Part shown: piece after piece, positions 852 to 8,358 of the stretch | Layout: each line of letters begins with the position of its first letter | Numbering within the stretch: the first letter of the stretch is position 1 | Source of the DNA: Micromonosporaceae bacterium | GTDB taxonomy: Bacteria > Actinomycetota > Actinomycetes > Mycobacteriales > Micromonosporaceae | Assembly (NCBI GenBank): GCA_009377645.1 | Contig: WHTQ01000004.1 | Location: 1-64,000 of the forward strand | Direction: 5' to 3' | Length of the DNA stretch: 64,000 bases | Translations under genes and position numbers: made by a program | The notes under the pieces: generated by a model | Database searches by the model: none | Seen by the model: only the letters and a program-made list of their open reading frames with translations | Told to the model about the DNA's origin: nothing

Positions 852-1535
852 TTATCTCCGGCGGGCCGTCGTACGGGTCGACTTGCGTGCCGCGGTGGAC
901 TTCGCCGGGGCCCGCTTCGCAACCTTCTTGGCGGTGCTCGTACGGGCGGCCGCCTTCGCCGGTGCGGCTCTGCGGGCCGGTGCCCGCTTGGCCGTCGACT
1001 TGCGAGCCGGCGCCTTCTTCGCGGTCGCCTTCCGAGTGGTCGCCTTCCGAGCCGTGGACTTCCGCGCGGTCGTCTTGCGCGCGGTCGTCTTGCGGGCGGT
1101 CGACTTACGCGCAGGAGCCTTCTTCGCCGTCGACTTACGCGCAGGAGCCTTCTTCGCCGTCGACTTACGAGCCGGTGCTCGCTTCGCCGTCGCCGTGCGC
1201 GTCGTGGACTTCCGTGCGGTCGTCTTCCGTGCGGTCGTCTTGCGCGCAGGAGCCTTCTTCGCCGTCGTCTTCTTGGCCGGCGCCCGCTTGGCCGGCGCCC
1301 GCTTGGCCGTCGACTTACGCGCTGTGGACGCACGCGCGGTTGTCGTGCGCTTCGTCGTCGCACGGCCGGCGGCCTTCTTCGTGGTCGCCCTCGCGGTGGT
1401 CTTCTTCGCCGCGGCGCGCTTCGCCGGTGCCCGGGTGGCAGTCACCCGTTTGGTAACACCGGTCCGTGTCGTGCTTCGCCTAGCGGCCGCGCGTGGGGCG
1501 GCCGTTCGGGTCGTGGCCTTCTTCGCAACGGCCAT
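852..1535 (-). CDS. Histone H1-like Lys/Ala/Arg/Thr-rich DNA-binding protein
   Basis: About 227 residues composed almost only of Ala, Lys, Arg, Thr and Ser, built from degenerate repeats such as KKAPARKSTA and RKTTARKTTA. The whole protein resembles the C-terminal tail of eukaryotic H1 and of actinobacterial HU-type proteins, but no folded HU domain precedes it. Such tails bind DNA non-specifically and help compact the nucleoid (family knowledge). AAGGAGG is 6 nt before ATG 1535, which I prefer to ATG 1538. The + strand shadow frames are long only because of the repeats. Specific role unknown. Confidence 0.7.
   Translation of the reverse strand: MAVAKKATTRTAAPRAAARRSTTRTGVTKRVTATRAPAKRAAAKKTTARATTKKAAGRATTKRTTTARASTARKSTAKRAPAKRAPAKKTTAKKAPARKTTARKTTARKSTTRTATAKRAPARKSTAKKAPARKSTAKKAPARKSTARKTTARKTTARKSTARKATTRKATAKKAPARKSTAKRAPARRAAPAKAAARTSTAKKVAKRAPAKSTAARKSTRTTARRR
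1099..1168. repeat. 30-bp tandem repeat inside the histone-like gene
   Basis: Two perfect 30-bp copies (1099-1128 and 1129-1158) followed by a 10-bp partial third copy, encoding the repeated KKAPARKSTA unit. Identical copies suggest recent expansion or slippage, so gene length may vary between strains. Confidence 0.85.
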
Positions 1536-1701
1536 CATGTTCCTCCTTACCGGAAGCTCGAGCGGAACCGACCACGGTCGTTCCCGCTACTGCTCATGTC
1601 ATTACTCTGCACGTTAAACCACTCATGCGCTACCGTTTCGGCGAAAATGACGCACGACCTCTACAGTAGATGCCCTGGCGACCGATCCAGAGTGGTTATC
1701 G

Positions 1702-1720
1702 ACAACTGCGCCAGAGTTGT
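1702..1720. promoter_or_regulatory. Inverted repeat, possible operator of the histone-like gene
   Basis: ACAACT (1702-1707) and AGTTGT (1715-1720) form a perfect 6-bp inverted repeat with a 7-nt spacer. It lies about 170 bp upstream of the histone-like start codon. The regulator is unknown. Confidence 0.3.
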
Positions 1721-1848
1721 TGTTCTACAACCATTTCCAACCCGATCCACGGAAGCCGGAATGGCTGCGAAACGGCTCCGGCTGGCCGAGAAAATTCTTT
1801 GGCTGTGAACCGGCGTGTCGCGCGCGCAGAGGGCTCCGAAGTGGTGAC

Positions 1849-1890
1849 GCGGGCGGGCCCGCTCCGGGAGTCCGAAGCGGGCCCGCCCGC
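1849..1890 (-). terminator. Terminator hairpin after mosA
   Basis: A perfect 14-bp GC stem (1849-1862 with 1877-1890) and a 14-nt loop begins 17 bp beyond the mosA stop codon. There is no clear T-run, as is usual for actinomycete terminators. It marks the end of the molybdenum operon. Confidence 0.8.
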
Positions 1891-1907
1891 GGCTAGGTCG
1901 TCGACGG

Positions 1908-2756
1908 TCAGTCCGCGTGCACGATGGTGCCCACCTTCTCGCCCGCGAAGGCGGCCCGCAGGTTGCCCGGCTGCAGGGCGTTGACGATCCGGAACTGCTT
2001 GAGCAGCCGTGCGTGCTCCAGCAGGTCCAGGATCACCGGGTCGAACGGCAGTGAGCGCAGCTTGCGGCGTCGCAGCTCGGCCACGCCGATCTCGGGGATG
2101 AACACCGCGTCCGGGTTCTGCCGGGGATCGTCGTCGTAGAGCCCGTTCACGTCCTTGAGCAGGATCAGCTCCTTGCTGCCGAAGCACTCGGCCAGCAGGA
2201 AGCAGCCGGCATCGGTGCGGTGCGGTGGGATCCGGCCGACCCGCGGCGGGTGCTCCCAGATGGAGTATGGCGGCAGGCCGTTGTAGATGACGCCCGGGAC
2301 GGCGTGTAGGAACAGCGGAAGCAGGTGCCCGAAGATCTCCGGCGGGATCGCCACCACCCCCTTCGGGGCCAGCAGCGTCCCGAGCATGTGGGCGGTGCCC
2401 AGCGCGTCGGCGGCGGCCAGCTGCGCCAGCACGCCGGTGGGCAGGCCCAGGTCGATGCCGATCGAGAACACGTGCCGGGTGCGGGCGCCGCCACCGGTGC
2501 CGAGGATCAGCTTGCGCCCATCGTCGAGCGCCGCCGACAGCTCCGCCACGACCGGGAAGACCACCTCCCGCCCCCGGTCGAAGATCGAGCGGCCGCCGAC
2601 CTTGATGACGTACGAGTCCGGGAGCATCCGGAACACCGGCGTCTCGGTGCTCCGCTCCACCGCCCGGTCGAGCAGGCTCTCCCGCATCAGGAACGACTCG
2701 AGGTGCGGTCGCTGGTCGCTCACCGCAGGTCCCATGCCGGTCTGGTGGTCAGTCAC
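1908..2756 (-). CDS. mosA: Molybdenum storage protein, alpha-type subunit
   Basis: 282 residues with the amino-acid-kinase fold of the MoSto subunits: VIKVGGRSIFDRG (about 50-62), then LGTGGGARTRHVFSIGIDLGLPTG, NGLPPYSIWE, GRIPPHRTDAGCFLLAE, LLKDVNGLYDDDP and a C-terminal VGTIV. In Azotobacter vinelandii the MosA/MosB hexamer stores about a hundred Mo atoms as polyoxomolybdate clusters in an ATP-dependent way. Uridylate kinase is the nearest alternative reading, but the RTRH/RARH, PPHRTD and LPPY motifs and the paired paralogue favour MoSto. The start overlaps the end of mosB by 8 bp, so the two are probably translated together. Last gene of the operon. Whether every cluster-binding residue is kept cannot be judged without a structural alignment. 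Confidence 0.85.
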   Translation of the reverse strand: MTDHQTGMGPAVSDQRPHLESFLMRESLLDRAVERSTETPVFRMLPDSYVIKVGGRSIFDRGREVVFPVVAELSAALDDGRKLILGTGGGARTRHVFSIGIDLGLPTGVLAQLAAADALGTAHMLGTLLAPKGVVAIPPEIFGHLLPLFLHAVPGVIYNGLPPYSIWEHPPRVGRIPPHRTDAGCFLLAECFGSKELILLKDVNGLYDDDPRQNPDAVFIPEIGVAELRRRKLRSLPFDPVILDLLEHARLLKQFRIVNALQPGNLRAAFAGEKVGTIVHAD

Positions 2757-3570
2757 TGGTGATCACCGTCCCTACCTGCTCGCCGTTCAGTGCCTTCGTG
2801 ATGGTGCCGGGCTCCAGCCCGTTGATGACCTGGATTCGCCGCCCGTGCTCGGCGGTCTCCATCAGGTCCAGCACCGCCCGCTCCACGACCACGTCCTGCA
2901 GGTCCAGCGCCTTCAGCTCGGAGACGGTGATCTCCGGGATGAAGGTGGCGCTGCGGTCCTTCTTCGGATCGGCCGTGTAGAGCCCCCGCTCGTCCTTGAT
3001 GAAGATCATGCTGCGGCTGCTGAACACCTCGGCGATCAGGTAGACCCCAGTGTCGGTACGGTGCGGCGGGATCCGGCCCATCCCGGTCTCCGGGTTGCGC
3101 TGCCAGAAGGTGTAGGGCGGCATCCCGAAGAAGACCACCCCCCGCCGCTCCTCCAGGTAGAGCGGCAGCTGGGCGAACTGTGCCGGCTCGATGAACGGGA
3201 TCCCGTGCCGCGCCACCAGGTAGTGGATCATCCGGGCGTTCTGGCTGCTGACGAACGTGCCGAGCACGCTGAGCACGCCGGTCGGCAGGCCGAGGTCGAG
3301 GCCGATGCTGTACGCGTGCCGGGCCCGAGTGCCGGCCCCGCAGCCGATGATCAGCTTGTGGTCGGGCAGGTTCGCCACCAGCTCCTCGATGACCGGGAAG
3401 ACCGCCGCCCGTCCCCGGTCGATCAGGCTCTGCCCGCCGATCTTGACAACATTGGCGTCCGGCAGGATCTGCACCGGCCGGGAGGTCCCGGTGTCGGCCA
3501 GCAGCTCCTCGTCGCTGAGCGAGCCGGTGACCAGCCGGGCGCCCAGGTCAGTGAGTAATGCCTCACTCAT
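2749..3570 (-). CDS. mosB: Molybdenum storage protein, beta-type subunit
   Basis: 273 residues, clearly paralogous to the next gene and closer to MosB: VVKIGGQSLIDRGRAAVFP (about 41-59), IIGCGAGTRARHAYSIGLDLGLP, FFGMPPYTFW, GRIPPHRTDTGVYLIAE, MIFIKDERGLYTADPK, ATFIPEITV and GTVIT. The KIGGQS-IDRGRAAV signature is the one found in the Azotobacter beta subunit. The start codon lies 8 bp inside the 3' end of the methyltransferase gene, and its own end overlaps mosA by 8 bp, so alpha and beta should be made in similar amounts, as expected for a mixed hexamer. Confidence 0.88.
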   Translation of the reverse strand: MSEALLTDLGARLVTGSLSDEELLADTGTSRPVQILPDANVVKIGGQSLIDRGRAAVFPVIEELVANLPDHKLIIGCGAGTRARHAYSIGLDLGLPTGVLSVLGTFVSSQNARMIHYLVARHGIPFIEPAQFAQLPLYLEERRGVVFFGMPPYTFWQRNPETGMGRIPPHRTDTGVYLIAEVFSSRSMIFIKDERGLYTADPKKDRSATFIPEITVSELKALDLQDVVVERAVLDLMETAEHGRRIQVINGLEPGTITKALNGEQVGTVITSD

Positions 3571-4408
3571 CTCTCTCCTTTGGGGGTTGGAGTTGTACGC
3601 CTTCCAGGACGAAGCTCTCCTCGGTCCAGACCGGCCCGGCCGGCTCGCCGAACCGGTCGGCGACCCACTCCGCGAGCTCGTCCAGGATCGCCGCCGACAC
3701 CTCGGCCGGCGGGGTGACGCCGCCCATCGAGTACTTCTGCCGCCACTCGTCCAGCACGTCGCCGGGCTTGACCTCGTGCGGCCAGCTGGCGGCGGTGACC
3801 GGCGGCAGCAGCGTCCCGCCCGCCTCGGCCGCCCGTTCCAGCAGCCGCTGCAGCAACCGGCCGGCCGGCCGAGGAGTCAGCCCATGCGCCCGCAGGCGCT
3901 CGTGCAGCGCCCGGCGAAGCAGCACCTTCGGGGAGTCCGGGTGGCGCTCCAGCCGGCCCTGCACCAGCACCGCCCGGTCCGGGCGAGCCACCCGGTTGGC
4001 CTCCCGGACCAGGTGCTCCGGGTCGAGCAGCTGGAAGACCCGGGAGCCGAACACCACCCGGGCGGTGCCGTCGGCGACCGGCCACGGCTGGTCGGCGTCG
4101 GCATGCACCAGACGGGCATGCCCACCTTCCGGCAGCCGGGTGGCGAACCCGGAAAGCATCGGCTGGGAGGCGTCCAGCCCGAGATAGCGGGCCGGCGGGC
4201 GGGCCAGCCAGGCTCCGATCAGGCCGGTGCCGGCACCGATCTCGACGATCAGGTCGCCGGCGTCCACCCCCGCGTACCGCACCACCGTGTCGGCGATCTG
4301 CTCGGCCACGCCGGCCGGGAACCCGGCCCGGGCGTCGAACACGCCGGCCGCCTGCTCGTCGAACGAAACCCGGTCCAACGGTAGTCCCCGGGGAAGCGGT
4401 GTGGTCAT
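3563..4408 (-). CDS. SAM-dependent class I methyltransferase in the molybdenum operon
   Basis: 281 residues. Motif I is LIVEIGAGTGLIGAWLA (about 53-69), followed by YLGLDASQPML (acidic residue at the end of strand 2), ADADQPWPVADGTARVVF and LVREANRVARPDRAVLVQGRL, so a Rossmann-fold SAM-binding domain of the methyltransferase 11/25 type. Substrate unknown. Its ATG overlaps the modC stop (ATGA) and its end overlaps mosB by 8 bp: it is fixed inside the molybdate import/storage operon. It could modify a cofactor, a storage-protein residue or a small molecule; nothing in the sequence chooses among these. Confidence 0.75.
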   Translation of the reverse strand: MTTPLPRGLPLDRVSFDEQAAGVFDARAGFPAGVAEQIADTVVRYAGVDAGDLIVEIGAGTGLIGAWLARPPARYLGLDASQPMLSGFATRLPEGGHARLVHADADQPWPVADGTARVVFGSRVFQLLDPEHLVREANRVARPDRAVLVQGRLERHPDSPKVLLRRALHERLRAHGLTPRPAGRLLQRLLERAAEAGGTLLPPVTAASWPHEVKPGDVLDEWRQKYSMGGVTPPAEVSAAILDELAEWVADRFGEPAGPVWTEESFVLEGVQLQPPKERDE

Positions 4409-5547
4409 GGTCTCTCCTGTTCGGACCCATCGGTGCCAGTTGGCTCAGCTGACGCGTACGCCCGGATCTCGGTTGCCTTGACCGCTGCCCAGACCGGCTC
4501 CCCCGCGGCCAGCCGCAGCTGCGCGGCCGCGTCCGGGGTGATGTCGGCCGCGGCCGGCAGCGGCCCCCCGAGCTGGACCCGCAGGTTGTCGCCGTGATGC
4601 TGGATGCCGGTGACGGTGGCCTGCCAGACGTTGCGCGGGCTGCCCTCCGGCTGGAACTGGTGCAGCGCGACCGCGGCCGGCCGGAACGCCACGAACACGC
4701 CGCCCTGGTGCCGGTCGTCGACGGTGAGCTTGAACCCGTTGTCCAACGCCACCGCGTGCCCGTCCGCGTGGCCCCGGTACAGGTTGAGCCCGACCAGCCG
4801 CGCCACGTAGTCGGTCTGCGGCTGGGCGGTGATGGTGACCGCGTCGCCGGCCTGCACGATCCGGCCGTCCTCGACCACGATCAGCCGGTCGGCCAGGATC
4901 GCCGCGTCCAGCGGGTCGTGGGTGACCACCAGTGCGCCCCCGGCGTGCGCGGCCAGGTGCCGGTGCAGCTCGGCCCGGGTGTCCACCCGGGTGCCGGCGT
5001 CCAGCGCCGCCAGCGGTTCGTCCAGCAGCAGCAGGGTCGGCTCGACCGCCAGCGCCCGGGCCAGCGCGACCCGCTGGGCCTGCCCGCCGGACAGCTGCCG
5101 GGGGCGGCGGCGGGCGCAGTGGCCCAGCGCCACCCGGTCCAGCCAGCCGGCGGCGACCGCCCGGGCGCGCTGCCGCGCGACCCCCCGGCTGCGCAGCCCG
5201 AACGCCACGTTGTCCAGCGCGCTCAGGTGCGGGAACAGCAGGTAGTCCTGGAACACCACCCCGATCCCGCGCCGCTCCGGCGGGACCCAGACCCGCTCGG
5301 TCGGATCGTCCACTGTCGTCCCGGCCAGCCGTACGTGCCCGGCGCTGAGGTGGACCAGCCCGGCCACCGCCCGCAGCGCGGTGGTCTTGCCGGCGCCGTT
5401 CGGCCCGAGCAGCGCCACCACCTCCCCCGGCGCGACGGTCAGCGCGATGTCGAGCCGGAACCCGGGCCGGTCGACGGTCAGCCGGGCGTCCAGCGCGGGA
5501 ACCGGTGCCGGGGTGGTCGATGCCGTCCGGTTCGCTCCTGCGCTCAC
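4405..5547 (-). CDS. modC: Molybdate ABC transporter ATP-binding protein
   Basis: 380 residues from GTG 5547, which overlaps the modB stop (GTGA). Walker A is LLGPNGAGKTT, the Q-loop VVFQDYLLFPHLS, the signature LSGGQAQRVALARALA, Walker B LLLLDEPLAALD and the H-loop VVTHD. The C-terminal third (VTGIQHHGDNLRVQL, GEPVWAAVKATEIRAY) is the Mop/TOBE-type molybdate-binding domain of ModC, which senses bound anion. It energises import by ModB with ModA. A longer in-frame extension upstream is a shadow of modB and is not used. Third gene of the operon. Confidence 0.9.
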   Translation of the reverse strand: MSAGANRTASTTPAPVPALDARLTVDRPGFRLDIALTVAPGEVVALLGPNGAGKTTALRAVAGLVHLSAGHVRLAGTTVDDPTERVWVPPERRGIGVVFQDYLLFPHLSALDNVAFGLRSRGVARQRARAVAAGWLDRVALGHCARRRPRQLSGGQAQRVALARALAVEPTLLLLDEPLAALDAGTRVDTRAELHRHLAAHAGGALVVTHDPLDAAILADRLIVVEDGRIVQAGDAVTITAQPQTDYVARLVGLNLYRGHADGHAVALDNGFKLTVDDRHQGGVFVAFRPAAVALHQFQPEGSPRNVWQATVTGIQHHGDNLRVQLGGPLPAAADITPDAAAQLRLAAGEPVWAAVKATEIRAYASAEPTGTDGSEQERP

Positions 5548-6413
5548 GCCGCGCTCCCTCCGGTCAGCCACTTGTCCCGCAGGCTGGCCAGGATCGCGAT
5601 CGACACCACCAGCAGCACCAGGCTCAGCACGATCGCCGCCTCCGGCTCGGTCTCCAGCGCCAGGTAGACCGCCACCGGCATGGTCTGGGTGCGGCCCGGG
5701 AAGTTGCCGGCGAACGTGATCGTGGCCCCGAACTCCCCCAGCGCCCGCGCCCAGCACAGCACCGCGCCGGCGGCCACCCCGGGCGCGACCAGCGGCAGCG
5801 TGACCCGCCGGAAGGTAGTCCAGCGCCCGGCGCCGAGGGTGGCGGCGGCCTCCTCGTACCGGGTATCCGCGCCGCGCAGCGCACCCTCCACCGCGATCAC
5901 CAGGAACGGCATCGCGACGAACGCCTGGGCCATCACCACCGCGGTGGTGGTGAACGGCAGCGTGACCCCGAACGTGCTGTCCAGCCAGCTCCCGACGACG
6001 CCGCGCCGGCCGAACACCAGCAGCAGGGCCACCCCGCCGACCACCGGCGGCAGCACCATCGGCACCGTCACCAGCGCCCGGACCAGCTGCCGGCCCGGGA
6101 ACCTGGTGCGAGCCAGCACCCACGCCAGCGGCACCCCCACCAGCAGGCAGGCCGCGGTGGCGGTGGTGGCGGTCTGCAGCGACAGCCGCAGCGCGGTGAG
6201 CACGCCGGGCTCGGCCAGCCGCTCCGGCAGGGTCGGCCAGGGTGCCCGGATCACCAGCCCCAGCAACGGGAGCACCAGGAACGCCAGGCCCAGCAGCGCG
6301 GGCACCACCGCCACCATCGGCGCCCGCCGGCGCACCGTGTCCGGCCCGGGACGGGGCGAGCGACCCGGCGATGGTCCCGGCGCCGGGCCGTCGGTCAGCG
6401 TCGACCTGGTCAT
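5544..6413 (-). CDS. modB: Molybdate ABC transporter permease
   Basis: 289 residues, starting at ATG 6413 which overlaps the modA stop (ATGA). There are about five to six membrane helices, the first near residues 33-55, and an EAA loop, EEAAATLGAGRWTTFRRVTLPL, that contacts the ATPase. VPMVLPPVVGGVALLLVFGRRG and CWARALGEFGATITFAGN are typical of ModB/CysT permeases. It forms the cytoplasmic membrane channel for molybdate. Tungstate or sulfate permease is the alternative, but the ModA and ModC partners and the linked storage genes favour molybdate. Confidence 0.9.
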   Translation of the reverse strand: MTRSTLTDGPAPGPSPGRSPRPGPDTVRRRAPMVAVVPALLGLAFLVLPLLGLVIRAPWPTLPERLAEPGVLTALRLSLQTATTATAACLLVGVPLAWVLARTRFPGRQLVRALVTVPMVLPPVVGGVALLLVFGRRGVVGSWLDSTFGVTLPFTTTAVVMAQAFVAMPFLVIAVEGALRGADTRYEEAAATLGAGRWTTFRRVTLPLVAPGVAAGAVLCWARALGEFGATITFAGNFPGRTQTMPVAVYLALETEPEAAIVLSLVLLVVSIAILASLRDKWLTGGSAA

Positions 6414-7198
6414 GACGGCCGGGCGAACCCTGCGTCGGCGAGGACCGCCTGTCCGGCCTCGGAGAGCACGAGCTCCACGAACGCCGCCGCCGCGGTCGGG
6501 TTCGGGGCGTCGTCGAGCACGCTGATCGGATAGTCGTTGACCGCCTCGGCCGACTCCGGGAACTCGACCCCGTCCACCTGCTCCGAGGCCCGGACGTCGG
6601 TGCGGTAGACCAGGGCGGCGTCGACCTCGCCCAGCTCGACCTTGGCCAGCGCGGCCTTGACGTCGCGCTCCAGCGTGGCCGGGGTGAGCGCGACCCCGGC
6701 GGCGGCCAGTGCCCGCTGCGCCGCCCGCCCGCACGGCACCTGCTCGGCGCACAGCGCCACCGTCAGCCCGGGCAGGTCGGCCAGCCCGGCGATGCCCAAC
6801 GGGTTGCCCGGCCCGACCGCGATCACCAGCTGGTTGCGGGCGAAGGTGGCCGGCGACACCCCGGTCCCGCCGCCGTCGGCCACCAGCTGCATGGAGGTGG
6901 GGTCGGCCGCCGCGAACACGTCCACCGGCGCCCCTTCGTTGATCTGTTGCGCCAGGGTGGCGCTGCCGGCGAAGTTGAGCACCACCGTGGCGCCCGGGTA
7001 CGCCGCCTCGAAGTCCTCCCCGAGCCGGCCGAACGGCTCGGTCAGCGAGGCGGCCGCGAAGATCGTGACGGTGCCGCCGACGCCTTCCTCCGGCGGGTCG
7101 GCATCGGCGGAGCCCCCGCAGCCGGCGACCGCGAGCGCGACCACGAGCGCCGTCGCCACCAGCCCGGCGGGCGGACCGGTCGCGCGCGAGCTACCCAT
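6410..7198 (-). CDS. modA: Molybdate-binding lipoprotein
   Basis: About 262 residues. An N-terminal hydrophobic segment ends in the lipobox LAVAGC, so the protein is exported and lipid-anchored. The mature part opens VTIFAAASLTEPFGRL and has NFAGSATLAQQI and PVDVFAAAD, the anion-binding loops of ModA, then RNQLVIAVGPGNP and DAALVYRTDV. It captures molybdate outside the cell for ModBC. First gene of the six-gene operon. GAGAGGGG sits just before the first ATG (7204) and 5-7 nt before the second (7198), so I prefer 7198. No tungstate-specific feature is visible. Confidence 0.9.
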   Translation of the reverse strand: MGSSRATGPPAGLVATALVVALAVAGCGGSADADPPEEGVGGTVTIFAAASLTEPFGRLGEDFEAAYPGATVVLNFAGSATLAQQINEGAPVDVFAAADPTSMQLVADGGGTGVSPATFARNQLVIAVGPGNPLGIAGLADLPGLTVALCAEQVPCGRAAQRALAAAGVALTPATLERDVKAALAKVELGEVDAALVYRTDVRASEQVDGVEFPESAEAVNDYPISVLDDAPNPTAAAAFVELVLSEAGQAVLADAGFARPS

Positions 7199-7214
7199 CC
7201 CCATCCCCTCTCAC

Positions 7215-7233
7215 GACCGTCACGAAGTCGGTC
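7215..7233. promoter_or_regulatory. Possible operator upstream of the molybdenum operon
   Basis: GACCG (7215-7219) and CGGTC (7229-7233) form a 5-bp inverted repeat with GTCAC half-sites around it, about 17-35 bp upstream of modA. A ModE-type box is not recognisable and no modE gene is in the window. Weak. Confidence 0.2.
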
Positions 7234-7323
7234 ACATTTGTGGAGATTGCCATGGTTGACCGGGTCGCACCAGAACGGGTTCCCCCTAGTGATCCCCGGC
7301 GCCGGCACTCGTACGCTGGCGCG

Positions 7324-8358
7324 GTGGACGACCACCACGACCTGATCTTTGTCGGCTCGCTCCCTCCCACCCCCGGCGGCGGGGAAGGGATCACCACGGT
7401 ACGCCGGGACCGGCGCTCCGGCGAGCTGACCGCGCCGCGGTTGGCGGCGGTCACCCCGGCGCCGTCGTTCCTGGCCCGGCACCCGGCCCGACCGGTGCTG
7501 TACGCGGTGAACGAGCTGCCGCAGGGTCGGCTGAGCGCCTGGCAGGTGGCCCCGGACGGGGAGCTGACCCCGCTCGGCAGCGCCCCGACCGGCGACGCCG
7601 GGCCGTGCCACGTGGCGGTGCACCCGTCCGGGCGGTACGCGGTGTGCGCCAACTACCTCGGCGGGTCGGTCTCGGTGCTGCGGCTCGACGACACCGGCTC
7701 CCCGACCGGCCGCACCGAGCTGGTCCGGCACACCGGCCACGGGCCGGACCCGGACCGGCAGGCCGGGCCGCACCCGCACATGGCGGCGGTCGCGCCGGAC
7801 GGCGGTACGGTCAGCGTGGTGGACCTGGGCGCGGACACGGTGGTCCACTACCGGCTCTCGGCGGCCGGCACCCTGGCGCCGGCCGGCACCACCCCGACCC
7901 GCCCGGGCACCGGGCCACGGCACGTCGCCGTCGGCGCCGGCCTCGCGTACCTGGTCGGGGAGCTGGACGGGACCATCACCTGCTTCCAGGTCGACGGCGC
8001 CGGCCGGTGGCGGGAGCGGGACCGGCTCCCGCTGCTCGGCGACGGCGCCGCCGGCTACCCCTCGGAGGTGGCGGTCTCACCGGACCGCCGGTTCGTCTAC
8101 GCGGCCAGCCGGGGGCCGGACCGGATCGCCGTGTTCGCCGAGCCGGGTCGGCGGCTGCGGCCGGTCGCCGAGGTGCCGTGCGGCGGCCACTGGCCGCGCC
8201 ACTTCGCGCTGGTCGACGGGCACCTGTACGTGGCCAACGAACGCTCCGGATCGGTACTGACCTTCCGGGTCGACCCGGACACCGGCCTGCCGACACCGAC
8301 CGGCAACCTGCTCGACCTCCACAGCCCGAGCTGCGTTCTGCGATTCGCCCGGCGCTGA
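7324..8358 (+). CDS. pgl: 6-phosphogluconolactonase, beta-propeller (YbhE/lactonase) type
   Basis: 344 residues from GTG 7324. TACGCT at 7312-7317 is 6 nt before this GTG, so the mRNA is probably leaderless; an upstream in-frame extension to 7240 would be unconserved. Repeated blades contain DLIFVGS, FLARHPARPVLYAVNE, PCHVAVHPSGRYAVCANYLGGS, GPHPHMAAVAPDG, PRHVAV, SEVAVSPDRRFVYAASRGPD, HWPRHFAL and YVANERSGSV, the pattern of the seven-bladed lactonase family (COG2706). It hydrolyses 6-phosphogluconolactone in the pentose phosphate pathway. Divergent from modA. Confidence 0.85.
   Translation: MDDHHDLIFVGSLPPTPGGGEGITTVRRDRRSGELTAPRLAAVTPAPSFLARHPARPVLYAVNELPQGRLSAWQVAPDGELTPLGSAPTGDAGPCHVAVHPSGRYAVCANYLGGSVSVLRLDDTGSPTGRTELVRHTGHGPDPDRQAGPHPHMAAVAPDGGTVSVVDLGADTVVHYRLSAAGTLAPAGTTPTRPGTGPRHVAVGAGLAYLVGELDGTITCFQVDGAGRWRERDRLPLLGDGAAGYPSEVAVSPDRRFVYAASRGPDRIAVFAEPGRRLRPVAEVPCGGHWPRHFALVDGHLYVANERSGSVLTFRVDPDTGLPTPTGNLLDLHSPSCVLRFARR

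Follow-up and report, generated by a model that had tools for sequence, protein, structure and literature searches.

A predicted molybdenum storage cage of a lineage apart from the Azotobacter type, encoded with a ModABC importer and a methyltransferase in a Micromonosporaceae bacterium

The closest described system is the molybdenum storage protein (MoSto) of Azotobacter vinelandii, a hetero-hexameric cage built from an alpha (MosA) and a beta (MosB) subunit, which in the published model pumps molybdate through the wall of its cage past a methionine gate. In the excerpted text of PMC6448029, metal binding by this protein requires ATP hydrolysis and release depends on pH, and a strain without mosAB accumulates less molybdenum and tolerates tungsten less. 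Here we analyze a related locus in a stretch of 64,000 nucleotides, hereafter the window, from a Micromonosporaceae bacterium (assembly GCA_009377645.1, contig WHTQ01000004.1, positions 1 to 64,000), which carries on its minus strand (7204-1908) the genes modA-modB-modC-methyltransferase-mosB-mosA (Table 1). From its predicted products, this cassette probably serves as a bank of molybdenum, or tungsten, for enzymes with the molybdenum cofactor, in which a ModABC importer, a MoSto-type cage and a dedicated methyltransferase act together; the two metals cannot be told apart from these data.

Direct reading of the sequence confirmed the initial annotation of these genes as a six-gene operon with an overlap at every junction. 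All six frames are open, without inner stops and with a third-position GC of 0.90-0.96 in each, and the overlaps measure 4, 4, 4, 8 and 8 bp (ATGA, GTGA, ATGA, ATGAGTGA and GTGACTGA). For every one of the six proteins there is a matching family model or a solved relative. The arrangement looks like a single transcription unit, in agreement with the one transcript that had been proposed for transporter and store.

Searches against solved structures matched the mosB-like product (mos1) to MoSto beta (E 3.6e-90) and alpha (2.4e-60), as against 1.6e-8 for the best other kinase, and the mosA-like product (mos2) to the same two chains (2.5e-72 and 3.7e-54), as against 2.6e-9 for the best uridylate kinase. 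The AlphaFold2 (AF2) model of mos2, with a predicted local distance difference test score (pLDDT) of 84.8, has MoSto chains as its top fold matches (Z 30.9-31.9), the kinases of uridine monophosphate (UMP) reaching at most 25.1. Assignment of the pair to PyrH-type UMP kinases was considered and rejected, the two proteins scoring 51.0 and 52.2 bits with TIGR02076 (cut-off 158.05) and 27.1 and 32.4 bits with TIGR02075 (cut-off 243.9). The initial annotation had named clustering with such kinases as one outcome that would speak against its reading; instead, a 100/100 branch separates all 26 Mos rows from five UMP-kinase-like proteins of the same bacterial family, so called by similarity and not by the PyrH model. 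The beta and alpha names given initially are likewise upheld by a 97-row tree, in which mos1 lies on the MosB side and mos2 on the MosA side, despite the better score of the latter against MosB (47% identity to A. vinelandii MosB, 41% to MosA). Judged by sequence and predicted fold, the two kinase-fold proteins are a beta-like and an alpha-like MoSto subunit and not UMP kinases.

One scan of a species-genome collection recovered at least 48 Mos loci from many phyla, a lower bound given that the search relied on a single protein with exact peptide patterns and that many loci end at contig ends. The locus titles name Actinobacteria, Planctomycetota, Acidobacteria, Gemmatimonadetes, Cyanobacteria, Gammaproteobacteria and others, and the best tblastn segments to the window range from 63 to 86% identity for mos1 and from 55 to 88% for mos2 (L052 and L054 excepted). 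On the mos1 side of the tree the window groups with 45 loci in a starred clade (46 rows, 100/99), and on the mos2 side with 42 loci in another (43 rows, 100/99). The classical branch is sister to this lineage, starred on the beta side (99/90) and unstarred on the alpha side (95/67); in the 97-row tree L052 clusters with A. vinelandii. The Bacillota locus L050 joins the lineage on the mos1 side only, unstarred (99/78), and falls outside it on the mos2 side, while L054 stands apart on long branches that leave its placement unsure. In a small tree, for which one in four of the other loci was retained, the pairs from Azospirillum plasmids and G439 group with A. vinelandii, and L161 and L162 fall outside both branches. 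An alignment of the alpha-like proteins (A2) holds 34 of 45. By tree position, the window pair belongs to a MoSto lineage distinct from that of Azotobacter. A search of a collection of open-access papers yielded, among the matches listed, no description of either this lineage or its methyltransferase. Annotators do know of homologs as such, since some classical-branch Azospirillum genes bear the annotation molybdenum storage protein and others that of uridine or uridine monophosphate kinase. Two outlying pairs were seen besides: in the gammaproteobacterial L054 (9121-10795) the two Mos-like genes both sit on the beta side, and in L161 (548-4774, on an Actinomycetota contig) modABC is convergent with the Mos pair that falls outside both main lineages.

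The residues of the nucleotide site and the gate are conserved in the beta-like subunits: the lysine at the position of beta Lys42 and the methionine at that of beta Met149, which we take to be the gate, are present in every one of the 47 mos1 proteins (the residue counts, 47 mos1 and 44 mos2, include L050, without which they are 46 and 43). A variant Kb42S is named in a PDB title. A lysine is also present in 44/44 mos2 proteins at the position that is Glu190 in A. vinelandii alpha. According to the portion of PMC4504029 consulted, octamolybdate in A. vinelandii is bound to His156 and Glu129. Only alpha, of the two A. vinelandii chains, has these residues at these numbers. At the corresponding positions the mos2 proteins have proline for Glu129 (44/44) and serine for His156 (38/44), with phenylalanine (42/44) for His140, presumably a further cluster ligand; glutamate occupies the 129 position in 46/47 mos1 proteins. 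Among the five classical-branch alphas, Glu129 and His156 are found in three, being missing in L052 and L159, and His140 in four. The site alignment thus finds the ATP-site lysine and gate methionine of beta and not the residues of alpha that hold Mo8 in A. vinelandii, the absence of which means that the same cluster chemistry cannot be assumed. On this residue evidence the lineage is MoSto by descent and not of the A. vinelandii cluster type; by kinship, the window cage should work like that of A. vinelandii, with a cluster chemistry that must differ at the sites held by alpha.

Of the 48 loci, 45 have a second Mos gene (L048 and L049 are cut by contig ends and L051 is without one); with L052 and L054 set aside, 43 of the remaining 46 contain a beta/alpha pair. 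Within the fetched DNA, the methyltransferase gene is the next most frequent partner, found in 29/48 loci as against 0/60 control windows, followed by Mod genes (modA or modB; 20/48 and 0/60), a multicopper oxidase (15/48 and 1/60) and an ABC-2 exporter (13/48 and 0/60). These counts were made at E 1e-10 with masking and above 100 bits, on 723 kb of loci and 798 kb of controls; the control windows come from the same genomes and begin at contig starts, some being only 2-7 kb long. The scores of 48/48 for both mos1 and mos2 in this count reflect cross-matching. At E 1e-8 without masking the methyltransferase appears in 33/48 loci (once as a 77-residue fragment), and Mod genes too in a few more. 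In 25 of 29 cases the methyltransferase gene precedes the cage genes on their own strand by no more than 400 bp, and 13/20 modB and 12/13 ABC-2 genes share the strand of the cage. The methyltransferase gene went undetected in ten loci of Pseudomonadota (L019, L020, L023, L028-L031, L033, L037 and L040), seven of which have a multicopper oxidase within 240 bp of the Mos pair; L025, also of Pseudomonadota, has it. In two other actinobacterial loci, L016 and L021, modABC stands upstream of methyltransferase-mos-mos on the same strand, with the multicopper oxidase intervening in L021, so that the gene order first noted here is not peculiar to this organism.

Such partners could also be read as the tailoring genes of a biosynthetic cluster in which the Mos-like proteins are true small-molecule kinases sharing only the fold of MoSto. 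Methyltransferases, ABC-2 exporters and oxidases are common parts of tailoring and export, the mos2 lysine at the Glu190 position implies that both subunits could be catalytic, and L051 has a single Mos gene; against this, the proteins are nearer to MoSto in sequence and fold than to any small-molecule kinase, the beta/alpha pair is nearly constant, and the loci are linked to Mod genes. We consider this reading of the cassette improbable.

Some further neighbors were recorded in these loci. In L031 (4488-6594) and L023, which belong to related Pseudomonadota, the Mos pair is immediately preceded by a SelD-like gene and a SelU-like frame, the names being given by eye and AIR synthase domains being detected in the SelD-like gene as tested in L031. 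Small genes of cluster c9 (L027:8525-8878) occur near Mos in nine cyanobacterial loci and of cluster c16 (L019:9627-9941) in five Pseudomonadota loci; one tested member of each gave no Pfam match at 0.001.

The methyltransferase was passed over by the initial annotation despite its frequency beside the cage. Its AF2 model (pLDDT 91.3) is nearest among solved folds to TTHA0223 (PDB 2yqz), titled a hypothetical methyltransferase. Attempts to name it more precisely were set aside: by NCBIfam, the window protein has nine matches and stays well below the cut-off of each, and by fold TTHA0223 alone stands out, itself of unassigned function. The other members of its alignment (A1, 32 members, into which 31 of 33 methyltransferase hits entered, the exceptions being the 77-residue fragment and, because its frame continued beyond a stop, L026) have their best E-values for broad methyltransferase families. 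Among 150 genomes of the bacterial family, searched with at most 16 candidates scored per genome, the enzyme is found in two, namely the two with Mos. Its distances correlate with those of mos2 (r 0.70) and mos1 (r 0.53) over 29 loci in a Mantel test, which cannot separate shared descent from coupling. If the cassette is a metal bank, the likeliest guess, held tentatively, is that the enzyme modifies one of the cage subunits or else a small ligand controlling loading or release.

Within the host genome (G000, 95.2% complete; the window contig, C119, is 112 kb), no match to the nitrogenase family PF00148 was found, an absence that at this completeness is no proof; a service to nitrogenase was accordingly rejected as the role of the cage. 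Over the 49 genomes searched, PF00148 is matched in nine, the nine cyanobacterial ones, and unmatched in 40; since we take the family to cover light-independent chlorophyll reductase as well, nif-bearing genomes number at most nine. The host has moaA over its cut-off, three matches to PF02738, one to PF00174 and four to PF00384, one of these with an in-frame TGA. PF00384 is matched in 48/50 genomes and, as it presumably also covers NuoG, this is no count of molybdenum enzymes. The TGA-bearing match to the molybdopterin oxidoreductases lies outside the window (C37:16701-17729), has similar matches in two genomes of the same genus (G071 and G102) and is a candidate selenocysteine formate dehydrogenase. 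Matches to the five families searched genome-wide lie on other contigs and none in the window, among the matches listed, which include three of the four to PF00384. This agrees with the initial statement that the window holds no nitrogenase, ModE or molybdenum-cofactor gene; the sole TOBE (PF03459) match of the genome is inside the window modC.

Combining these observations, we propose that one transcript yields the molybdate/tungstate importer, the two-subunit cage and the methyltransferase. Molybdate would enter via ModABC, the beta-like subunit would spend ATP on moving it across the wall of the cage, and inside it would condense to polyoxomolybdate. The store could later supply molybdenum hydroxylases, the candidate formate dehydrogenase and a sulfite-oxidase-type protein, and might also damp swings in molybdate. 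Because ModABC shares the gene run of the cage, import would be expected to increase and decrease in step with storage. The initial interpretation, that the organism may bank molybdenum for other molybdenum enzymes or buffer molybdate or tungstate, is in this sense partly supported: the lack of a nif match and the several molybdenum-cofactor enzymes of the genome speak for it, and the chemistry of the A. vinelandii cluster cannot be carried over with it.

An unlikely, if weightier, alternative is that the cage mainly buffers an excess or the wrong oxyanion, such as tungstate or the high molybdate of alkaline water, and is not an enzyme reserve. The close relative L007 is a metagenome-assembled genome named CSSed165cm, a name suggesting a soda-lake origin, and other CSSed data sets come from soda-lake sediments in the excerpted text of PMC6146748; the tungsten sensitivity of A. 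vinelandii without mosAB (PMC6448029, likewise in excerpt) and the exporters and oxidases near the cage point the same way. Against it, placement of the importer in the gene run of the cage favors collection over defense, and the lineage loci come from many named groups. Beyond the enzyme bank of the window itself, it is possible, with less than even confidence, that the lineage as a whole represents a second, multi-phylum kind of MoSto, a molybdenum- or tungsten-mineralizing cage mostly of nitrogenase-free bacteria. In this kind both subunits would bear the kinase lysine, the inner cluster chemistry would differ (without alpha Glu129 and His156 and relying instead, for example, on the glutamate at the same position of the beta-like chain), the methyltransferase would be a working part, and an importer, ABC-2 exporter or multicopper oxidase would be joined to it according to lineage. 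The spread of the lineage over many phyla, mostly in genomes lacking a match to the nif family, makes it testable whether bacteria generally bank molybdenum for molybdenum-cofactor enzymes, and how a methyltransferase is involved in such banking.

Several findings weigh against the proposed bank, in addition to the absence of the alpha cluster residues. The modC product scores 211.6 bits with TIGR02142, under the cut-off of 285.05; the fetched DNA of 28/48 loci, some of it in short stretches, holds no Mod gene; the loci are not independent samples; and at L051 (8057-8869) mos1 has the methyltransferase upstream and no adjoining mos2 although the contig continues. Within the genus, G071, a genome in one contig, carries a helix-turn-helix (HTH)-TOBE gene with modABC and no Mos, and G102 has methyltransferase-mos-mos with no modABC within the 17 kb fetched around it and a different modBC on another contig. 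The HTH-TOBE regulator was not found in the host in a search run without a positive control. Since the cage of G102 has no modABC nearby and the modABC of G071 no Mos, importer and cage are separable modules, joined in the window, L016 and L021.

The rarity of the cassette could further suggest an artefact of binning or assembly, or foreign DNA that has no function in its host. Only two of 300 genomes of the bacterial family, the host and G102, carry Mos (others score 30 bits or less, and the matches listed are partial), and 5/396 genomes of the phylum have a Mos match at 1e-20; the cassette lies 1.9 kb from the contig end, and the GC of mos1 is 0.676 as against 0.730 for the window. Set against these points, the G102 copy is 87% identical in mos1 and 50% in the methyltransferase, modB is 83% identical to that of G071, the DNA flanking the cassette is also matched within the genus, the contig is long and the six frames are intact, and this explanation is very improbable indeed.

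As for transcript signals, the 14-bp terminator reported after mosA corresponds to a strong hairpin that is somewhat larger, with a perfect outer stem of 16 bp and 20 pairs in the fold, one of them G-U (stretch 1830-1915, -53.4 kcal/mol, z -4.5); it has no T-run, and a scan for classical terminators gave 0 sites. No sigma-70-like promoter or U-run terminator was found in 1600-7500, and no Rfam element in the window at gathering scores. An in-frame ATG at 7198, where the initial annotation ended the gene, is an alternative start of modA. A distance of 35 bp separates modA from a divergent frame starting at 7240, which by eye resembles a lactonase. Elsewhere in the window (852-1538, minus strand), a 228-residue repetitive frame rich in Lys, Ala, Thr and Arg looks histone-H1-like by eye.

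Table 1. Genes and putative transcript end of the cassette, in window coordinates
Feature	Position	Strand	Details
modA, molybdate-binding protein	6410..7204	minus	264 aa; TIGR01256 116.1 bits vs cut-off 62.5
modB, molybdate ABC permease	5544..6413	minus	289 aa; TIGR02141 239.6 bits vs cut-off 182.6
modC, ABC ATPase with C-terminal TOBE domain	4405..5547	minus	380 aa; PF00005, PF03459
Class I S-adenosylmethionine methyltransferase, cage-associated family	3563..4408	minus	281 aa; PF08241
mosB-like (beta) subunit, mos1	2749..3570	minus	273 aa; 54% identity to A. vinelandii MosB; tree
mosA-like (alpha) subunit, mos2	1908..2756	minus	282 aa; MosA side of tree
GC-rich hairpin after mosA, possible transcript end	1848..1891	minus	fold energy

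Compared with known systems, the parts of the cassette differ in how closely they resemble their relatives. The methyltransferase has its nearest solved relative in TTHA0223, aligned over nearly its full length with 25% identity in the fold alignment. The importer shares with ModABC systems modA and modB proteins over curated cut-offs and differs in a modC under the equivalog cut-off and, unlike the G071 operon, in the lack of a detected HTH-TOBE regulator gene in the host genome. The MosAB of Azospirillum plasmids (L157 and L158) and of Solirubrobacteraceae (L052) have the same beta-alpha gene pair; they group with A. vinelandii and show no methyltransferase match in the fetched stretches, Mod genes being present near L052 and absent from the Azospirillum stretches fetched. 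From A. vinelandii MoSto itself (PDB 2ogx, 4f6t and 6rkd) the window pair differs in its separate branch, in its want of alpha Glu129, His140 and His156, in a lineage that comes with a methyltransferase and often with Mod genes, and in a host without a nif match, whereas it shares the two homologous kinase-fold subunits, the beta Lys42 and Met149 positions, and a fold that in the alpha-like subunit matches over most of its length.

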